Of a stretch of DNA of 51,231 bases, positions 7,306-45,557 are shown piece after piece. How positions within the stretch are numbered: the first letter of the stretch is position 1; every line of letters begins with the position of its first letter. This DNA is from a virus. A program made the translations under genes and the position numbers. The notes under the pieces were generated by a model. It had not been told where the DNA came from, searched no databases, and was given only the letters and a program-made list of their open reading frames with translations. The stretch covers positions 1 to 51,231 of IMG/VR virus record IMGVR_UViG_3300042691_031545; one strand, 5' to 3'.

Positions 7306-8229
7306 ATGAAAACAAAATTAATAGCCCTAACAATGATAAGTTTGCTAAATGGATGTGCAATACATCAATTAGCCGGAGACTTAGACGCACTGCCAGAAGT
7401 CACTAAAAATGTACTTCAAAAAGAATTTGACAGCATACCGCCACCGTCAGTGGGTAAACCGATCAGTGTAGCAGTATACAGTTTTCAAGATAAAACTGGA
7501 CAAAGAAGACCTCTACAAAATATTGCAAGTTTAAGCACTGCGGTAACCCAAGGAGCAGAATCGTTTCTTATTAAGGCACTGCAAGATGTGGGGCGAGGTC
7601 AATGGTTCGAAGTAGTTGAGAGAGTAGGGATAGATAATCTGACCAAAGAAAGATTAATTATCCGACAAATGAGGGAAGCCTACGAAGGTAACAATGCCAG
7701 ACCTTTAATGCCCATGCAATTTGCAGGTATGATCATTGAAGGTGGTATTATTGGTTACGATTCTAGTACTAAGTCGGGTGGAGTTGGTGCTAGATGGTTG
7801 GGTATAGGTACTCAAACTCAGTACAGTGAAGATATTGTTACGGTAAGTCTAAGAGCTGTCAGTGTTAACACTGGCAAAGTTCTTATCAGCGTAACAGTGC
7901 AAAAAACTATATTAAGTAGCAGCGACAGTACCACAGCATTTAAATTTTTCGATCTCGGCACTAAAGCATTCGAAGCCGAAGCTGGTTTGACAATAAACGA
8001 ACCAGGAACTTATGCCGTCAAAACTGCTATAGAAGCAGCGGTGGTTGAGTTAATCAAAGAAGGTCAACGAAAATCAGTTTGGGATTTTAAAACACAAACA
8101 ACACAACAAAATAATAAGGAGGGAAATCAAATTGAGCTGGTTCAAGAGAAGACCCCGGATAAAAGAGGAGAAACATCTCCCGCATCATTGGCACAGCCCG
8201 CTAGCGGACAAGCTAATGGAGGAAACTAA
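7306..8229 (+). CDS. csgG: Curli secretion channel CsgG-like lipoprotein
   Basis: 307 aa outer-membrane lipoprotein. The signal peptide ends with lipobox LLNGC (C17). Family blocks are clear: ISVAVYSFQDKTGQRRP, GAESFLIKAL, WFEVVERVGIDNLTKERLI, then the transmembrane hairpin region GVGARWLGIGT and DIVTVSLRAVSVNTGKVL. CsgG forms a nonameric pore that exports curlin subunits. CsgG homologues are known in some aquatic T4-like phages. The last 30 or so residues are low-complexity and overlap another reading frame (8132-8302) that has its own ribosome site. Confidence 0.9.
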   Translation: MKTKLIALTMISLLNGCAIHQLAGDLDALPEVTKNVLQKEFDSIPPPSVGKPISVAVYSFQDKTGQRRPLQNIASLSTAVTQGAESFLIKALQDVGRGQWFEVVERVGIDNLTKERLIIRQMREAYEGNNARPLMPMQFAGMIIEGGIIGYDSSTKSGGVGARWLGIGTQTQYSEDIVTVSLRAVSVNTGKVLISVTVQKTILSSSDSTTAFKFFDLGTKAFEAEAGLTINEPGTYAVKTAIEAAVVELIKEGQRKSVWDFKTQTTQQNNKEGNQIELVQEKTPDKRGETSPASLAQPASGQANGGN

Positions 8230-11626: not shown

Positions 11627-13675
11627 ATGTTTGTAAAAAAACTATTGTTAAGTCCTTGGACTGCGCTATTAACACTGGCACTTATTGTAAGTATAAGAAT
11701 TGTTGATCCCGCTTTTATAGAAAGTGTAAGATTAAGGTACTTTGACACTTTTATCACACAAAAAACTCCTACAGACAACAATATATACACAGTCAATATA
11801 GATGAATCTAGTCTAGAAAAGTACGGCCAATGGCCATTACCGAGGACAGAATATGCGAAAATTATTCAAGACCTTTATGCTCGCAATGCTGGCCTTGTTG
11901 TTCTCAATGTGCTTATGGCTGAGTCTGATCGTACTGGTGGAGATGGCGATCTTAGTGCCATACTTAAAAAGTATCCTGTAGTATTAGGTTCTGTGCCTAG
12001 TAACAAAACAAAAAATGAGCCTCGGGTTCCTGGATCAGCAGTACTAGGACCAGAATGGTTGGACCAAATTGTTACCTATCCAGGACTGATTGCCAACGTT
12101 CCTAAATTAGAAAATAATGCTGCAGGAGTCGGCATAGTAAACACACTACCAGAAGTAGACGGAGTTAATCGCCGTGTTCCTTTAATCGTAACTGTTGATG
12201 GAAAACTATATCCTGGACTAGCATTGGAAACATTGCGTGTTGCCACAGGCAATGACACATTTCAAGTTAAATTATTTGAAGGTGGCGTTGAAAAAATGCG
12301 TTTACCTGGAGAAGTTGGAATTATTAACACAGACAATCTTGGACGTATATGGATTGATTGGAGCCAACAGAGTAAATCAGTTAGCTTAACAAACTTACCA
12401 AAAGATTTTAATCGTGCCATTGTTGTAGTAGGTCCCACTGCCGCTGGTATTGCTAACCCTGTGCCGACTAGCAAAGGTGCAGTATTTCCGCATGATGTAC
12501 AAGCCAGTGTAATTGCTACAATAGCCAACGGTGTTGTTATTCAACGTCCAGACTATGCGGATGGCTTAGAAATTATTGCTATTGCAGTTGCGGGATTGTT
12601 ATTATTGTTTTTAACAAGGTGGACTTATGTTGGACTTGCGTCGGTTATTGTATTGGTCGCTGGCGGTATTGCTGGCAGCTACTATGCTTACAGCAACTTT
12701 TTATTCTTATTTGACAGTACTGCCTTTGCAGTTGGCACAGTCCTGGTCGCTTTGCATGCCTATGGTGTCAAATTCGTCAGTGAATTCTTACAAAAGCAAG
12801 CCATAAAGAAACAATTTGCCGGCTATTGCTCCAAAGAAGTAGTAGAGATGCTACAAAAAGATCCAGACTTAATTAAACGTGGTGTGCGTAAAGACGTATC
12901 GGTTATGTTCAGTGACCTACGTGGCTTTACACCTATCGGCGAACACTACGGAGATGATGTTGCTGGACTGGGCAAATACATGAATGGTTACATGGACAGC
13001 ATCAGCAAGCCTATCATGGATAACAAGGGCATGGTCATCAAATATGTAGGTGATGCAAGTATGCACATACATGGTGCTCCTATTGAAGATCCTAATCACG
13101 CTCGCACTATCGTTAAGGTAGGATTAGAAATGTTAGATGCTGTTGACGAGTACACCAAGCTGATGGAAGCACAAGGGTTGCCTCCAGCCGCAATGGGTTG
13201 GGGTTGTAACACGGGCATTGGCTTTATTGGTGAGATGGGCAGCACTGATAGACACAGCTATGACATTTTGGGCGACATGGTTAGTACTGCGGCTCGACTA
13301 GAAGCACGTTGTAAGGCCTATGGTGTGTTGGCCATTATTGGTGCTGAAACATACAATAGAACCAAAGACGACTTCTTCTACTTGTTGTTAGATAATCTAC
13401 AACCAAAAGGTAAGACTGTAGCAGACTTAATCTATACAGTTATACGACCGCGTGGTGAAGATTATAGTAAAGATCGAGAACAGCACGAAGCAATGCATGC
13501 CTTGTATAAGGCTAGGAAGTTTGACGAAGCTGCTGCTATGTGTAAGAAGATGAAAGGTCTATTTGGTGGACAGATGGACAAGTACTACAAGATATGGATT
13601 GAACGTTGCGAATTTATGAAGCAACAGGATTTAGGTCCAAATTGGAACGGCGAATTTATAGCGCACGAAAAGTAA
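11627..13675 (+). CDS. CHASE2-domain class III adenylate-cyclase-like protein
   Basis: 682 aa. Layout: N-terminal membrane helix (8-25), an extracytoplasmic CHASE2 sensor domain (about 35-300), three closely spaced membrane helices (about 305-378), then a class III nucleotidyl cyclase domain (about 420-610) and a helical tail. Both metal Asp residues are present (D430 in FSDLRGF, D476 in YVGDA), as are the adenine-selecting pair K473 and D546, and transition-state R557. The usual Asn of GDxVN is Ser (S553 in GDMVSTAARLE). It may make cAMP in response to a periplasmic signal, or be a reduced-activity variant. Phage-encoded membrane cyclases are rare. It is driven by a late promoter. Confidence 0.85.
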   Translation: MFVKKLLLSPWTALLTLALIVSIRIVDPAFIESVRLRYFDTFITQKTPTDNNIYTVNIDESSLEKYGQWPLPRTEYAKIIQDLYARNAGLVVLNVLMAESDRTGGDGDLSAILKKYPVVLGSVPSNKTKNEPRVPGSAVLGPEWLDQIVTYPGLIANVPKLENNAAGVGIVNTLPEVDGVNRRVPLIVTVDGKLYPGLALETLRVATGNDTFQVKLFEGGVEKMRLPGEVGIINTDNLGRIWIDWSQQSKSVSLTNLPKDFNRAIVVVGPTAAGIANPVPTSKGAVFPHDVQASVIATIANGVVIQRPDYADGLEIIAIAVAGLLLLFLTRWTYVGLASVIVLVAGGIAGSYYAYSNFLFLFDSTAFAVGTVLVALHAYGVKFVSEFLQKQAIKKQFAGYCSKEVVEMLQKDPDLIKRGVRKDVSVMFSDLRGFTPIGEHYGDDVAGLGKYMNGYMDSISKPIMDNKGMVIKYVGDASMHIHGAPIEDPNHARTIVKVGLEMLDAVDEYTKLMEAQGLPPAAMGWGCNTGIGFIGEMGSTDRHSYDILGDMVSTAARLEARCKAYGVLAIIGAETYNRTKDDFFYLLLDNLQPKGKTVADLIYTVIRPRGEDYSKDREQHEAMHALYKARKFDEAAAMCKKMKGLFGGQMDKYYKIWIERCEFMKQQDLGPNWNGEFIAHEK

Positions 13676-35759: not shown

Positions 35760-38144
35760 ATGAGATACCAAGAAATTAAAATAATAAATGAAGACGAGGA
35801 CTTGTTTGAAATAAACATGAGTCCCGGTAATCTTGACAAGCTGGCTAGTCAAATCGACGCCCGGGCTGGCATGGAATTTGAAATGATTGTACCTGGTGTC
35901 AAAGGTGACGATCCAGAAATGGAACCTGACTACAACAGCGACGAACGCTGCCGCAGCATTGATGATGCTGTGCAATTTTTCCACGACGGTGATTACAATG
36001 GCCGCAGAGAAGTACAACGCCTGCGTGAACGCATGGAAGAAGACTATCAAGAGTGGAAGATGGAAATAATCGACGCAGACTGGGCCAACGATCCCGCAGA
36101 GCATATCTACGAATACCTAGTGGACAATGTCACTCCCGAGGAAATAGGCGAAATCATTGGCGAGGACCTATCAGATGCCGACGGCGTAACCAAACAGCAA
36201 GCCTCGGTGGCCGCAGACTTTGTGAATGAAAACGAATTACAGCCCTATTATGACAATGCCAGAGATATACACAGAGAAGAAATGGACGGTGCATGGGACG
36301 AAAGCGACTGGTTGGATGCACAGGATCTTGACACCATGAGTGCCATTGAAAATGCATATGAAATTTCATGGCCACACTGGACGTATGACAATGATGGAGA
36401 AAATGTAGACATTGACCAAGTGGCTGATGAATTTGGAACAGCTATAAAACGGCCGGTAAATGCCAGTCAAAGATATCATGGTGCCCGTCGTGAAGCTGGT
36501 CATTATGTAGTAGAGCCCGATGGCAGTTTGGACCCAGATGACAGCAACGACGTGGGATTAGAATTTGTGAGTCCGCCCTTGCCGCTAGAAGAAATGTTCA
36601 GTGATTTAGACAAAGTCAAAGCTTGGGCAGACAAAACTGGTTGTTATACAAATGAAAGCACTGGGTTACATATCAACGTTAGTGTACCCGAATTCAGCGT
36701 TGACAATTTAGATTATATAAAACTGGCATTGTTGATGGGCGACAAATATGTGCTGGAACAGTTTGATAGATTGGGCAATACCTACGCTAAAAGCGCCATG
36801 GACAAAATTATTGACCGTGTCAGACAAAGACCCGAAGATGCTGAAATGCTGCTGGTTAAGATGAAAGAAGGATTAGGCAAGCTAGCAACTAAAGTAATTC
36901 ACAGCGGTGCAACTGACAAGTATACCAGTATCAATACAAAAACGGGCTATGTAGAATTTCGTAGTCCAGGTGGCGATTGGTTAGGCGATAAATTTTTTAA
37001 TCAAATAAAACCAACACTGACAAGATTTGTAGTTGCATTAGATGCTGCCATGGATCCGCAAAAATACAGAGATGAATATCTTAAAAAACTTTATAAACTA
37101 TTGCAACCTAAAAGTAAAGATGACACACTGAGTTACTTTGCCAAGTATGCCGCAGGAGAAATGCCTAAGGCTGCATTAAAGAGTTTCATTAAACAAGCAC
37201 AATTAGAACGTAAAATTGCCAAAGACCCCACTGGTGGAGAGAAGTATTGGTGGCGTGTGGGTCGTCCAGGTTACGGTGGCAGTGTTGAGGTAGTGGCTAC
37301 TAATCGAGCAGAAGCCATTGCATTAGGCAAGAAAGAATATCCCGAGTGGGACTATGCCAAAGACATGACTGCTACACCGATTCGTCCATACGATAAAGGT
37401 CCAGTACTTGGCAGAATAGGTAACCCCGAGCCGGTTGGTGCAATGCGTCCAACCAATCCTGATGGCAACTATGTAATTTTTGCCAACAACAGCAGAGCCG
37501 GCGATCCTCCTGCTTACCGCTTTATGGCCGCAGACAACGACGATGCCGAAACAGTGTTGACTCAATGGAGACGTGAAAATCCCGGTGACTGGGAAGTACA
37601 TTATGATGCTAACCAAAGACTGGGACAGCCTCCTGTGCCGGGCAGCACTCTGGACCGTCAACGTCAGCGAGCTGCACAGTCTGCTGGTGAATTTCAATTT
37701 GAAAGGCCTCAAACTGATATAGAAAATCGCCTGGGTTGGCCTGATCAAACTGCTGATGCCAACTATGAAGTTGTCAACAGAAATACCCTGCAGCCAGTGT
37801 ATTTGTTCATTGCCAACACTGATCAGGATGCTGCAAGAAAATACAGTCAAATCATAGATGCCATGGGCATGCCTGGCGCAGCTGAAAACTATGGCTACAG
37901 AGCCAGGGGCAGTGTAATGCCACCCGTGGATCGCCAAGGAGCTCAATCAGGTAACCAACGTCCAGCAGCAGGTGGCAACTTCACAGGCAACTGGTTGATC
38001 TTGGATCCTGAAGGTAGAGAAATACATCGCTTCTCGGGTGTAGGCAATGTGCAGAGTGATGCTAATCGTGTAGCTATAAACTGGATGCGAGCACGACCGG
38101 GCACCTTGCAGGCTGGCGTCACAGTGGTACCAGAGATGCAATAA
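35760..38144 (+). CDS. Amidoligase-like protein with putative capsid-targeting N-terminus
   Basis: 794 aa, largest gene here. Residues about 37-440 resemble the putative amidoligase (COOH-NH2 ligase, ATP-grasp-related) family: GMEFEMIVPG, YVVEPDGSLDP, VGLEFVSPPLPLEEM, TNESTGLHINVSV, KTGYVEFRSPGGDW. The C-terminal 300 residues hold three or four repeats of a small beta domain (YWWRVGRP..., NYVIFANNSRAGDP, NYEVVNRNTLQPVY, NWLILDPEGREIH). The N-terminus MRYQEIKIINEDEDLFE ends in LFE, a match to the T4 prohead protease rule (L/I)-x-E. It may be packaged in the head and injected, then modify host envelope or proteins (inference). Confidence 0.7.
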   Translation: MRYQEIKIINEDEDLFEINMSPGNLDKLASQIDARAGMEFEMIVPGVKGDDPEMEPDYNSDERCRSIDDAVQFFHDGDYNGRREVQRLRERMEEDYQEWKMEIIDADWANDPAEHIYEYLVDNVTPEEIGEIIGEDLSDADGVTKQQASVAADFVNENELQPYYDNARDIHREEMDGAWDESDWLDAQDLDTMSAIENAYEISWPHWTYDNDGENVDIDQVADEFGTAIKRPVNASQRYHGARREAGHYVVEPDGSLDPDDSNDVGLEFVSPPLPLEEMFSDLDKVKAWADKTGCYTNESTGLHINVSVPEFSVDNLDYIKLALLMGDKYVLEQFDRLGNTYAKSAMDKIIDRVRQRPEDAEMLLVKMKEGLGKLATKVIHSGATDKYTSINTKTGYVEFRSPGGDWLGDKFFNQIKPTLTRFVVALDAAMDPQKYRDEYLKKLYKLLQPKSKDDTLSYFAKYAAGEMPKAALKSFIKQAQLERKIAKDPTGGEKYWWRVGRPGYGGSVEVVATNRAEAIALGKKEYPEWDYAKDMTATPIRPYDKGPVLGRIGNPEPVGAMRPTNPDGNYVIFANNSRAGDPPAYRFMAADNDDAETVLTQWRRENPGDWEVHYDANQRLGQPPVPGSTLDRQRQRAAQSAGEFQFERPQTDIENRLGWPDQTADANYEVVNRNTLQPVYLFIANTDQDAARKYSQIIDAMGMPGAAENYGYRARGSVMPPVDRQGAQSGNQRPAAGGNFTGNWLILDPEGREIHRFSGVGNVQSDANRVAINWMRARPGTLQAGVTVVPEMQ

Positions 38145-44322: not shown

Positions 44323-44466
44323 ATGGTAATACTTAATTTAATTTTTTTGTTAGCACTAATTGGTATCATTGGATTTTGGATTCATTCAGTGGCCACCTAC
44401 GATTGGTCAAAATTCGATGAAGACAGCAAAGATGATGATTTCTTAAAGCCATACGATGACAAATAA
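44323..44466 (+). CDS. Small single-pass membrane protein
   Basis: 47 aa. One N-terminal membrane helix (VILNLIFLLALIGIIGFWIH) and a very acidic cytoplasmic or periplasmic tail (DWSKFDEDSKDDDFLKPYDD). No ribosome site; begins just after a late promoter, so it may be translated from a leaderless message. Function unknown. Confidence 0.5.
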   Translation: MVILNLIFLLALIGIIGFWIHSVATYDWSKFDEDSKDDDFLKPYDDK

Positions 44467-44898: not shown

Positions 44899-45066
44899 GT
44901 GAAACATCTCAAAGAAGTCAACATGGGATATTTCGAGCATTTGAAATTTGCTTGGTCTATGGCTGCCGCTTCTTTTATTCACGGTATATTTCCCTGTTTG
45001 TTTCCCGACTACGTGACTACGAAAATAACTGGGTCACCTCCCCGTTTTAGAGTTGACAACAAATAA
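44899..45066 (+). CDS. Small membrane protein, DUF6356-like
   Basis: 55 aa from GTG 44899 (ATG 44923 gives 47 aa). NMGYFEHLKFAWSMAAASFI then HGIFPCLFPDYVTTKI matches a short family with a Y-x-E-H-x-x-F-A start and a single membrane helix ending in H-(A/G)-x-x-P-x-L-F, found in alphaproteobacteria and their phages (DUF6356 in my recollection). Function unknown. The tmRNA promoter -35 lies in its last codons. Confidence 0.55.
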   Translation: MKHLKEVNMGYFEHLKFAWSMAAASFIHGIFPCLFPDYVTTKITGSPPRFRVDNK

Positions 45067-45081
45067 GAATAAATATATACT
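45053..45081 (+). promoter_or_regulatory. Promoter of the tmRNA precursor (sigma70-like plus late element)
   Basis: TTGACA (45053-45058), 17 bp, TATACT (45076-45081). AATAAATA (45068-45075) sits in the spacer, so late transcription is also possible. Predicted start near 45088 places the acceptor segment first in the RNA. Confidence 0.7.
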
Positions 45082-45164
45082 GTAAATTAAGACTGTATGA
45101 AGTAGATTGAAAAGGATTCAAGACGCGGGGGCAGTGCCCGCCAGGTCCACCATAAGGAAATTAA

Positions 45165-45281
45165 ATGGATATGTACATGCTTAAAGATTTGCTTGGCATT
45201 TTTCTAGTAATTGGATTACCAATTGTTATTGTGTATGCATTACTGAAAAGTGCTGAACGACCAAGGCATTTATCTGAATAA
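45165..45281 (+). CDS. Small membrane protein encoded inside the tmRNA intervening segment
   Basis: 38 aa. Ribosome site AAGGA (45154-45158) lies two bases after the encoded CCA, ATG at 45165. The product is MDMYMLKDLLGIFL followed by VIGLPIVIVYALL and a basic tail KSAERPRHLSE: one membrane helix. It fills almost the whole stretch between the two mature tmRNA pieces, so the same transcript may be both precursor RNA and message. Similar in style to the small membrane protein at 44323. Confidence 0.55.
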   Translation: MDMYMLKDLLGIFLVIGLPIVIVYALLKSAERPRHLSE

Positions 45282-45400
45282 TGTTTCTTTATGATGGGCC
45301 TGACACAGGATCGATTGGGTCAAGAGTAATGAAATGGACAGTCCGGCAATGTAGAAGCCGTTAGGGTTGAGACAACTCGGCCGAAGACACAAAACTAGTA

Positions 45401-45490
45401 AATGCAAAAGCATCTACATCTGGTAGCTTCAAGTTCAGCGGAAAAGGCGTAAAGCTAGCTTCTGCTCGTCGTGAGGCTGTATTGGCCTAA
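45401..45490 (+). other. tmRNA tag reading frame
   Basis: After TAGTA (45396-45400), placed like the TAGTC before the resume codon of E. coli tmRNA, the frame reads NAKASTSGSFKF, SGKGVKLAS, ARREAVLA and stop TAA (45488-45490). Starting at AAT (45401) it has 29 codons; starting at GCA (45404) it has 28. Bacterial tags are usually 8-15 residues for alphaproteobacteria, ending in LAA or VAA; this one is about twice as long and ends VLA. Confidence 0.7.
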
Positions 45491-45536
45491 GTAGCCAAAC
45501 CCGGGGTTGGTAACCTTGTAACTCAATAACCTAATT

Positions 45537-45557
45537 AGGACCTTCGGGTCCTTTTTA
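45537..45557 (+). terminator. Rho-independent terminator of the tmRNA
   Basis: AGGACC (45537-45542), TTCG tetraloop, GGTCCT (45547-45552) and T run. Confidence 0.9.

Follow-up and report, generated by a model that had tools for sequence, protein, structure and literature searches.

Permuted tmRNA genes are known from alphaproteobacteria, betaproteobacteria and cyanobacteria (Rfam RF04321; RF01849, RF01850 and RF01851), and the phage locus described here has the same order of pieces, the G3-U70 pair, the encoded CCA, the pairing between the pieces and the tag frame. The alphaproteobacterial copies examined had mostly a short intervening segment and no spanning ORF, whereas at the phage locus this segment holds a putative protein gene, the Shine-Dalgarno site of which is part of the closing stem. 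Permuted tmRNA in phages is a known kind already: Melnitz, a phage of Methylophilales, and other marine phages carry a two-piece ssrA and are likewise T4-type phages with a permuted tmRNA (PMC9004378). Besides the tmRNA, the Melnitz paper describes a glutamine riboswitch, and its count of two-piece tmRNAs from phage genomes, marine or aquatic for the most part, came to 53 (PMC9004378). The tmRNA database of 2025 lists 79 unique tmRNAs from phages, and its permuted sequences number 11,946 (PMC11915505).

Genes placed in a part absent from the mature tmRNA have been described in two other settings. The intron form of tmRNA also carries a protein gene, as homing-endonuclease ORFs within group I introns that interrupt the T loop and splice themselves out (PMC11915505), whereas the phage segment contains no intron and lies between processed ends. 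A second gene in the segment is likewise known from a permuted tmRNA whose intervening sequence contains tRNA-Ala (PMC11915505); this is a single case and an RNA gene, whereas the phages have many diverse protein genes. Of the segment contents reported, a tRNA gene and a repetitive element, one case of each, come nearest (PMC11915505), and no report of protein genes in a tmRNA intervening segment was found in the open-access literature, subscription papers being outside the search. A protein gene inside the excised tmRNA segment, found across many related phages, appears to be undescribed.

A two-piece tmRNA gene in a phage fragment

The window, the whole stretch of 51,231 nucleotides analysed, is a 51-kb IMG/VR virus fragment with genes for UvdE, an SHMT-like protein, UDP-glucose dehydrogenase and radical SAM proteins, and PstS adjoins the tmRNA. 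Additionally, the window codes for a CsgG curli-pore protein (7306-8229; 4e-51), a protein with CHASE2 and adenylate/guanylate cyclase domains (11627-13675), and a 794-aa protein with an amidoligase domain (35760-38144). The CsgG curli-pore gene has also been reported for Melnitz and pelagimyophages, and Melnitz resembles the window both in this CsgG-type gene and in a segment-spanning ORF. Records of the relatives reach up to 350 kb, and the T4-type capsid protein gp23 was present in 9 of the 12 records searched, Melnitz included; that the tmRNA is phage-borne, as a preliminary description of this DNA had it, is supported by these T4-type relatives and by the window being a virus record. SmpB was not found in the 11 phage records searched, so host SmpB would be required. 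Five MAG contigs among 84,980 bacterial and archaeal genomes fitted the tmRNA signature used in search of a host, and were rejected, as all had a CACCTCC acceptor, which is not that of the clade. Among named phages, the window DNA, the tag protein and the L079 tmRNA each gave no match.

On the basis of covariance models and helix covariation, the region 45091-45535 is a circularly permuted, two-piece phage tmRNA gene (Table 1). RF04321 (tmRNA_permuted) matched 45091-45431 over its full length (84 bits at E 1e-14, against a gathering score of 47); RF01849 (alpha_tmRNA) matched 45043-45536 with 52.7 bits (gathering 50), and both matches were unchanged on a repeat search of the window. The two-piece tmRNA proposed earlier at 45053-45557 is thus borne out, including the comparison with Rfam models that had been put forward as its check. 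ARAGORN missed the window copy; it called permuted tmRNA with cargo inside in L131, L079, L128, L238, L049 and Melnitz.

Table 1. Coordinates of the features at and near the tmRNA locus of the window
Feature	Position	Strand	Sequence or remarks
DUF6356-like ORF	44899-45066	+	just upstream of the tmRNA, outside it; 22.3 bits, below the cut-off of 24.4
Sigma-70-like promoter	45053-45081	+	TTGACA-17 nt-TATACT; 11/12 consensus; also at the same place in L011/L031
Acceptor piece (3' half of tRNA-like domain)	45091-45152	+	RF04321 and helix covariation
Inter-piece helix arms, acceptor piece	45091-45096; 45115-45121	+	
T stem-loop	45125-45141	+	stem strands 45125-45129/45137-45141
Acceptor 3' strand	45142-45148	+	CAGGTCC
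Encoded ACCA	45149-45152	+	
Intervening segment, predicted excised	45153-45295	+	143 nt, between ACCA and GGGCCTG; cargo slot
Closing stem, 5' arm	45153-45160	+	TAAGGAAA; holds the Shine-Dalgarno site; pairs with 45284-45291 in the minimum-energy fold
Embedded ORF, predicted membrane protein	45165-45281	+	38 aa, MDMYMLKDLLGIFLVIGLPIVIVYALLKSAERPRHLSE; Shine-Dalgarno site and start placed as in the cargo of relatives
Closing stem, 3' arm	45284-45291	+	TTTCTTTA; followed by TGAT; RNase P predicted to cut between 45295 and 45296
5' piece with mRNA-like region	45296-45535	+	3' end approximate; RF04321/RF01849 and helices
Acceptor 5' strand	45296-45302	+	GGGCCTG
Inter-piece helix arms, 5' piece	45315-45321; 45338-45343	+	
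Tag frame from resume codon GCA	45404-45490	+	28 aa, AKASTSGSFKFSGKGVKLASARREAVLA, stop TAA; tag of this type also in L238 (ARAGORN)
Intrinsic terminator	45537-45557	+	AGGACC-TTCG-GGTCCT and T tract, stem-loop 45537-45552; same terminator in L236 and L239

The acceptor piece with its encoded ACCA lies ahead of the 5'/tag piece, as already described, and the three helices listed at that time are all real, with covariation in relatives. The 7-bp acceptor stem CAGGTCC/GGGCCTG pairs fully across the 59 unique relatives, with G3-U70 in 59/59 and compensatory changes at the other pairs, and two-sided changes were found in the acceptor stem, the T stem and the 7-bp inter-piece helix (GATTCAA/TTGGGTC), in which one pair shifts from A-U to G-C. 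The 6-bp inter-piece helix GACTGT/ACAGTC has the compensatory versions TGCTGT/ACAGCT, GGTTGT/ACAACT and GACAGT/ACTGTT. The gene also has its own promoter, as had been claimed, in a region where chance alone would give some 1.7 promoter-like sites, whatever their quality, and the resume codon GCA, the 28-aa tag frame, the TAA stop and the terminator are in place.

The miss by ARAGORN and a score barely above the threshold of the alpha model could point to a tmRNA that was taken over from a host and has decayed or lost its function. The tRNA-like pairs are nevertheless all intact with compensatory changes, the promoter, tag frame, stop and terminator are intact, and the long tag is conserved in relatives; decay was rejected for the clade on these grounds and is scarcely credible. 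The narrow alpha score (52.7 against 50) bears in addition on the “alphaproteobacteria-like processing” suggested earlier: the model is passed, barely, and relatives are divided between the alpha and beta models, sister phage tmRNAs passing the latter (L169 with 91.1 and L122 with 84.0), which leaves that attribution weak.

A single loose pattern for permuted acceptor pieces gave at least 120 matches in IMG/VR, and Melnitz was published in 2022 (PMC9004378), so the statement that phage tmRNAs are rare is outdated. A clade-specific acceptor-piece pattern found 113 IMG/VR clade members among the matches listed.

Contents of the intervening segment

The preliminary description was right on the two-piece phage tmRNA, and overlooked the gene in the segment, the Shine-Dalgarno site buried in a stem, the exchange of cargo and the unusual tag. 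The clade was defined as the members sharing the acceptor and T-arm signature, the 113 listed giving 59 segments after dereplication. Segment boundaries are common to these 113 relatives among the matches listed; between the same flanks, the segments vary from 39 to 382 nt and differ greatly in content. An ORF was taken as spanning when it started at most 30 nt from CCA behind a Shine-Dalgarno-like motif and stayed open to at most 16 nt from the far end, with expected counts taken from shuffles of the middle part of the segment. Spanning ORFs were found in 22 of the 59 dereplicated segments (4.5 expected), and in 16 of the 19 segments of 110 nt or more (0.73 expected). The remaining 37 of the 59 lacked a spanning ORF, and cargo is therefore optional. 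In a small control of about 20 alphaproteobacterial copies, long ones included on purpose, the segments were short in most and no spanning ORF was found, even at 89-165 nt.

Most of the homologous cargo pairs tested are, as judged by dN and dS, under purifying selection: L131/L145 (dN 0.14, dS 1.38), L132/L228 (0.20, 1.62), L148/L222 (0.14, 0.64), L154/L174 (0.03, 0.25) and L166/L223 (0.02, 0.14). The exception was the closely related pair L168/L182, where an excess of synonymous change was absent (1 vs 6). The cargo of L131 is DUF2061 (Pfam, 3.5e-20), and DUF6356 (Pfam) was identified in the cargo of L140 (7e-10), L044 (3e-8) and L021 (4e-11), the latter two on tmRNA backbones other than that of L140. 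For a third family the model of the L166 cargo had a modest pLDDT of 62 and weak PDB matches (best E 5e-3), of which those listed were almost all acetyltransferases, weakly suggesting a GNAT-like fold. PHROGs searches of the cargo proteins gave no useful match.

An ordinary permuted tmRNA whose segment is neutral filler, its ORFs being chance open frames, would fit the many relatives with short non-coding segments (39-119 nt) and the same closing stem, and also the orphan status of the window ORF. Chance frames do not account for the 16 of 19 long segments spanned by an ORF against 0.73 expected, for a dN/dS of 0.1-0.2 in diverged cargo pairs, or for Pfam families and a GNAT-like fold among the cargo; this explanation was rejected for the clade for these reasons, and we hold it to be very unlikely.

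In the window itself, the Shine-Dalgarno sequence begins directly after CCA, and the ORF stops at 45279-45281, 14 nt before the predicted cut. A degenerate DNA scan of IMG/VR detected no homologue of the 38-aa product, and local tblastn over all fetched loci returned only the ORF itself, so the case for the window copy rests on its architecture; taken by itself, this ORF is a plausible candidate for a protein gene.

Cargo homologues also occur as ordinary genes outside tmRNA, DUF2061 in L036 and the L166 type as a domain of the larger L099 protein. In the window, an L142-type cargo homologue lies upstream of the tmRNA at 44335-44445. Both this ORF and the DUF6356-like one (Table 1) are small membrane-protein ORFs of families that sit inside the tmRNA segment in other phages.

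The 119-aa cargo of L133 begins with MRIKELTE, a start shared with the L051 cargo and comparable to MKISELTS in L154. This start appears to resemble the capsid-targeting leaders of T4, and the protein looks ADP-ribosyltransferase-like; it had no Pfam or PHROG match. The non-coding segments of L016, L045, L058, L192 and L218 show internal structure, with a T-arm-like stretch in L016, and for those of L016, L045 and L058 the Rfam match was to tmRNA only. Searched against Rfam at gathering scores, 16 relatives gave tmRNA and one ordinary tRNA, with no riboswitch or other RNA.

The closing stem and the Shine-Dalgarno site

A closing stem is formed by the eight bases that open the segment and the eight that lie upstream of the four preceding G1. 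Across relatives up to five pair types occur at single positions of this stem, and a segment's own arms paired on average at 7.61 of 8 positions, compared with 5.15 of 8 for swapped arms (0/20000 permutations as high). As pairing of ACCA with the U(G/A)AU ahead of G1 is possible at the cost of one or two mismatches, the acceptor helix, CCA and the closing stem make one long helix, which is seen in the minimum-energy fold of the window (-134 kcal/mol, z -2.5).

The opening and closing of the Shine-Dalgarno site was modelled thermodynamically on short stretches, with neither pseudoknots nor kinetics in the model. The mean unpaired probability of the site across 24 cargo loci was 0.62 in the nascent transcript, which lacks the far arm, vs 0.05 in the precursor, with respective values of 0.68 and 0.00 for the window. 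The excised segment alone keeps the site closed in most of the 24 loci, and the opening and closing was less clear-cut in L214, L131 and L173. The modelling suggests that translation of the cargo is confined to the nascent transcript.

With elements legible in the sequences (the tmRNA, the ORFs, selection on most tested cargo pairs, the closing stem, and the exchange of cargo and tags), the reading that we consider probable is a phage permuted tmRNA with its intervening segment used as an exchangeable slot for expressing a small phage protein, which is translated before the precursor closes. We infer translation, its timing, the cleavage sites and the function in infected cells as follows. A single promoter would give a single precursor with the acceptor piece, CCA, the Shine-Dalgarno site and small ORF, the 5'/tag piece and the terminator. 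During transcription the site would be open and ribosomes could make a burst of the small protein; transcription of the far arm would then let the ends of the segment pair, which would bury the site and lengthen the acceptor helix. Cuts by host tRNA-processing enzymes at CCA and at the 5' G would next release the segment, and the two-piece tmRNA that remains would work with host SmpB.

Ends of the cargo frames, the tag and the meaning of the proposed slot

In many relatives the cargo stop is the UGA of the UGAU preceding G1, a single base short of the place where RNase P is predicted to cut; in L149/L177/L210, L064 and its copies, L013/L049, L044, L070, L080 and the Melnitz family the cargo has no stop before the cut. 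The segment ORF of the Melnitz isolate (MZ577097, L351; locus 943-1085), MFKWLSKTRLVVITRDYFRERNRKADAKIPKYLSGTRSVYD (MFKWL...KADAKIPKYLSG), is unannotated in the record and, unlike that of the window, runs without a stop into the 5' piece, and the tag is ordinary (ANDNYVPVDYALAA). Homologues of this ORF on ten IMG/VR contigs are all without a stop before the cut, and within the family length differences are in frame and synonymous change exceeds replacement change per site (L351/L354: 8.7 of 27.3 synonymous vs 9.3 of 107.7 replacement sites).

A processed non-stop cargo message would be a substrate of trans-translation, reminiscent of arfA, whose stopless message is restrained by trans-translation (PMC10107115); alternatively, such cargo may be read before cleavage. 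The likeness is proposed for some relatives only, and unlike arfA, the phage message and the tmRNA would share one transcript. The window ORF has a stop ahead of the cut, so that the non-stop reading does not apply to it.

Taken further, the cargo mRNA may be a deliberate substrate, the tmRNA from the same transcript limiting or tagging the cargo protein, since the last codon of a message cut by RNase P would be its very end or be followed by one more base. This is consistent with the stopless cargo of several relatives and of the Melnitz family (the isolate as well as all ten copies from IMG/VR), in frame despite its divergence, with the UGA one base before the cut in many others, and with the repression of the non-stop arfA message by tmRNA (PMC10107115). 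The fixed closing stem, however, constrains the 3' sequence, so the frame at the end may be incidental, translation may come before cleavage and continue into the 5' piece, and the window ORF has an ordinary stop; deliberate tagging of the cargo is possible, and we doubt it. Only tentatively, and with the same doubt, may the phage permuted tmRNA be seen as a bifunctional one-RNA operon, with a swappable effector cassette, a Shine-Dalgarno site shut by folding, a cut at or near the last codon, and a tmRNA that controls or tags the cargo, which would close a regulatory loop within a single transcript.

The 28-aa tag of the window is basic and lacks the usual ALAA end. Close versions were found in seven IMG/VR tmRNAs (xxASTxGSFKFSGKGVKLASARREAVLA), with synonymous and replacement differences, and sit on different tmRNA backbones. 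L236 has the tag and terminator of the window with another T arm and a non-coding segment, and L238 has the long tag with another T arm and an 83-aa cargo. As the long tag stands behind differing T arms and segments, the tmRNA genes of these phages are mosaics of exchangeable modules. Another long tag, AKANTFEYFTVDFDITAMNDEQFEIAA, occurs in L271 near 3735, where the segment holds an apparent second CCA-ended tRNA-like piece, and L134 and L205 have an odd tag, ANQSKRKRLTFRIGSLNAD, with an end that is not an SsrA-like degron.

The retention of the long tag in seven relatives on different backbones, its missing ALAA end, and the inhibition of tmRNA by the tag-less form of phage DS6A (PMC11915505) would also suit a phage RNA that mainly interferes with or reprograms host trans-translation through the 28-aa tag, the cargo being secondary. 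Most relatives, in contrast, have ordinary tags (ANDSQFALAA, ANDEQFALAA or similar), and we find a main role of this kind unlikely.

The segment that separates the two halves of a permuted tmRNA has so far counted as waste. A tmRNA with its discarded segment as a regulated slot for small protein genes appears to be new, and for this clade the proposal appears well supported. If phages express the segment genes, one transcript would supply both a stable rescue RNA and a small protein, RNA genes that are annotated or were missed would conceal many small genes of phages, and the folding of the tmRNA precursor would act as a translation switch. The Melnitz isolate, with its cultured host (OM43 H5P1), has the same unannotated feature, which makes the idea testable now, and the conserved long tag raises the question of what purpose a phage-encoded tag may have.
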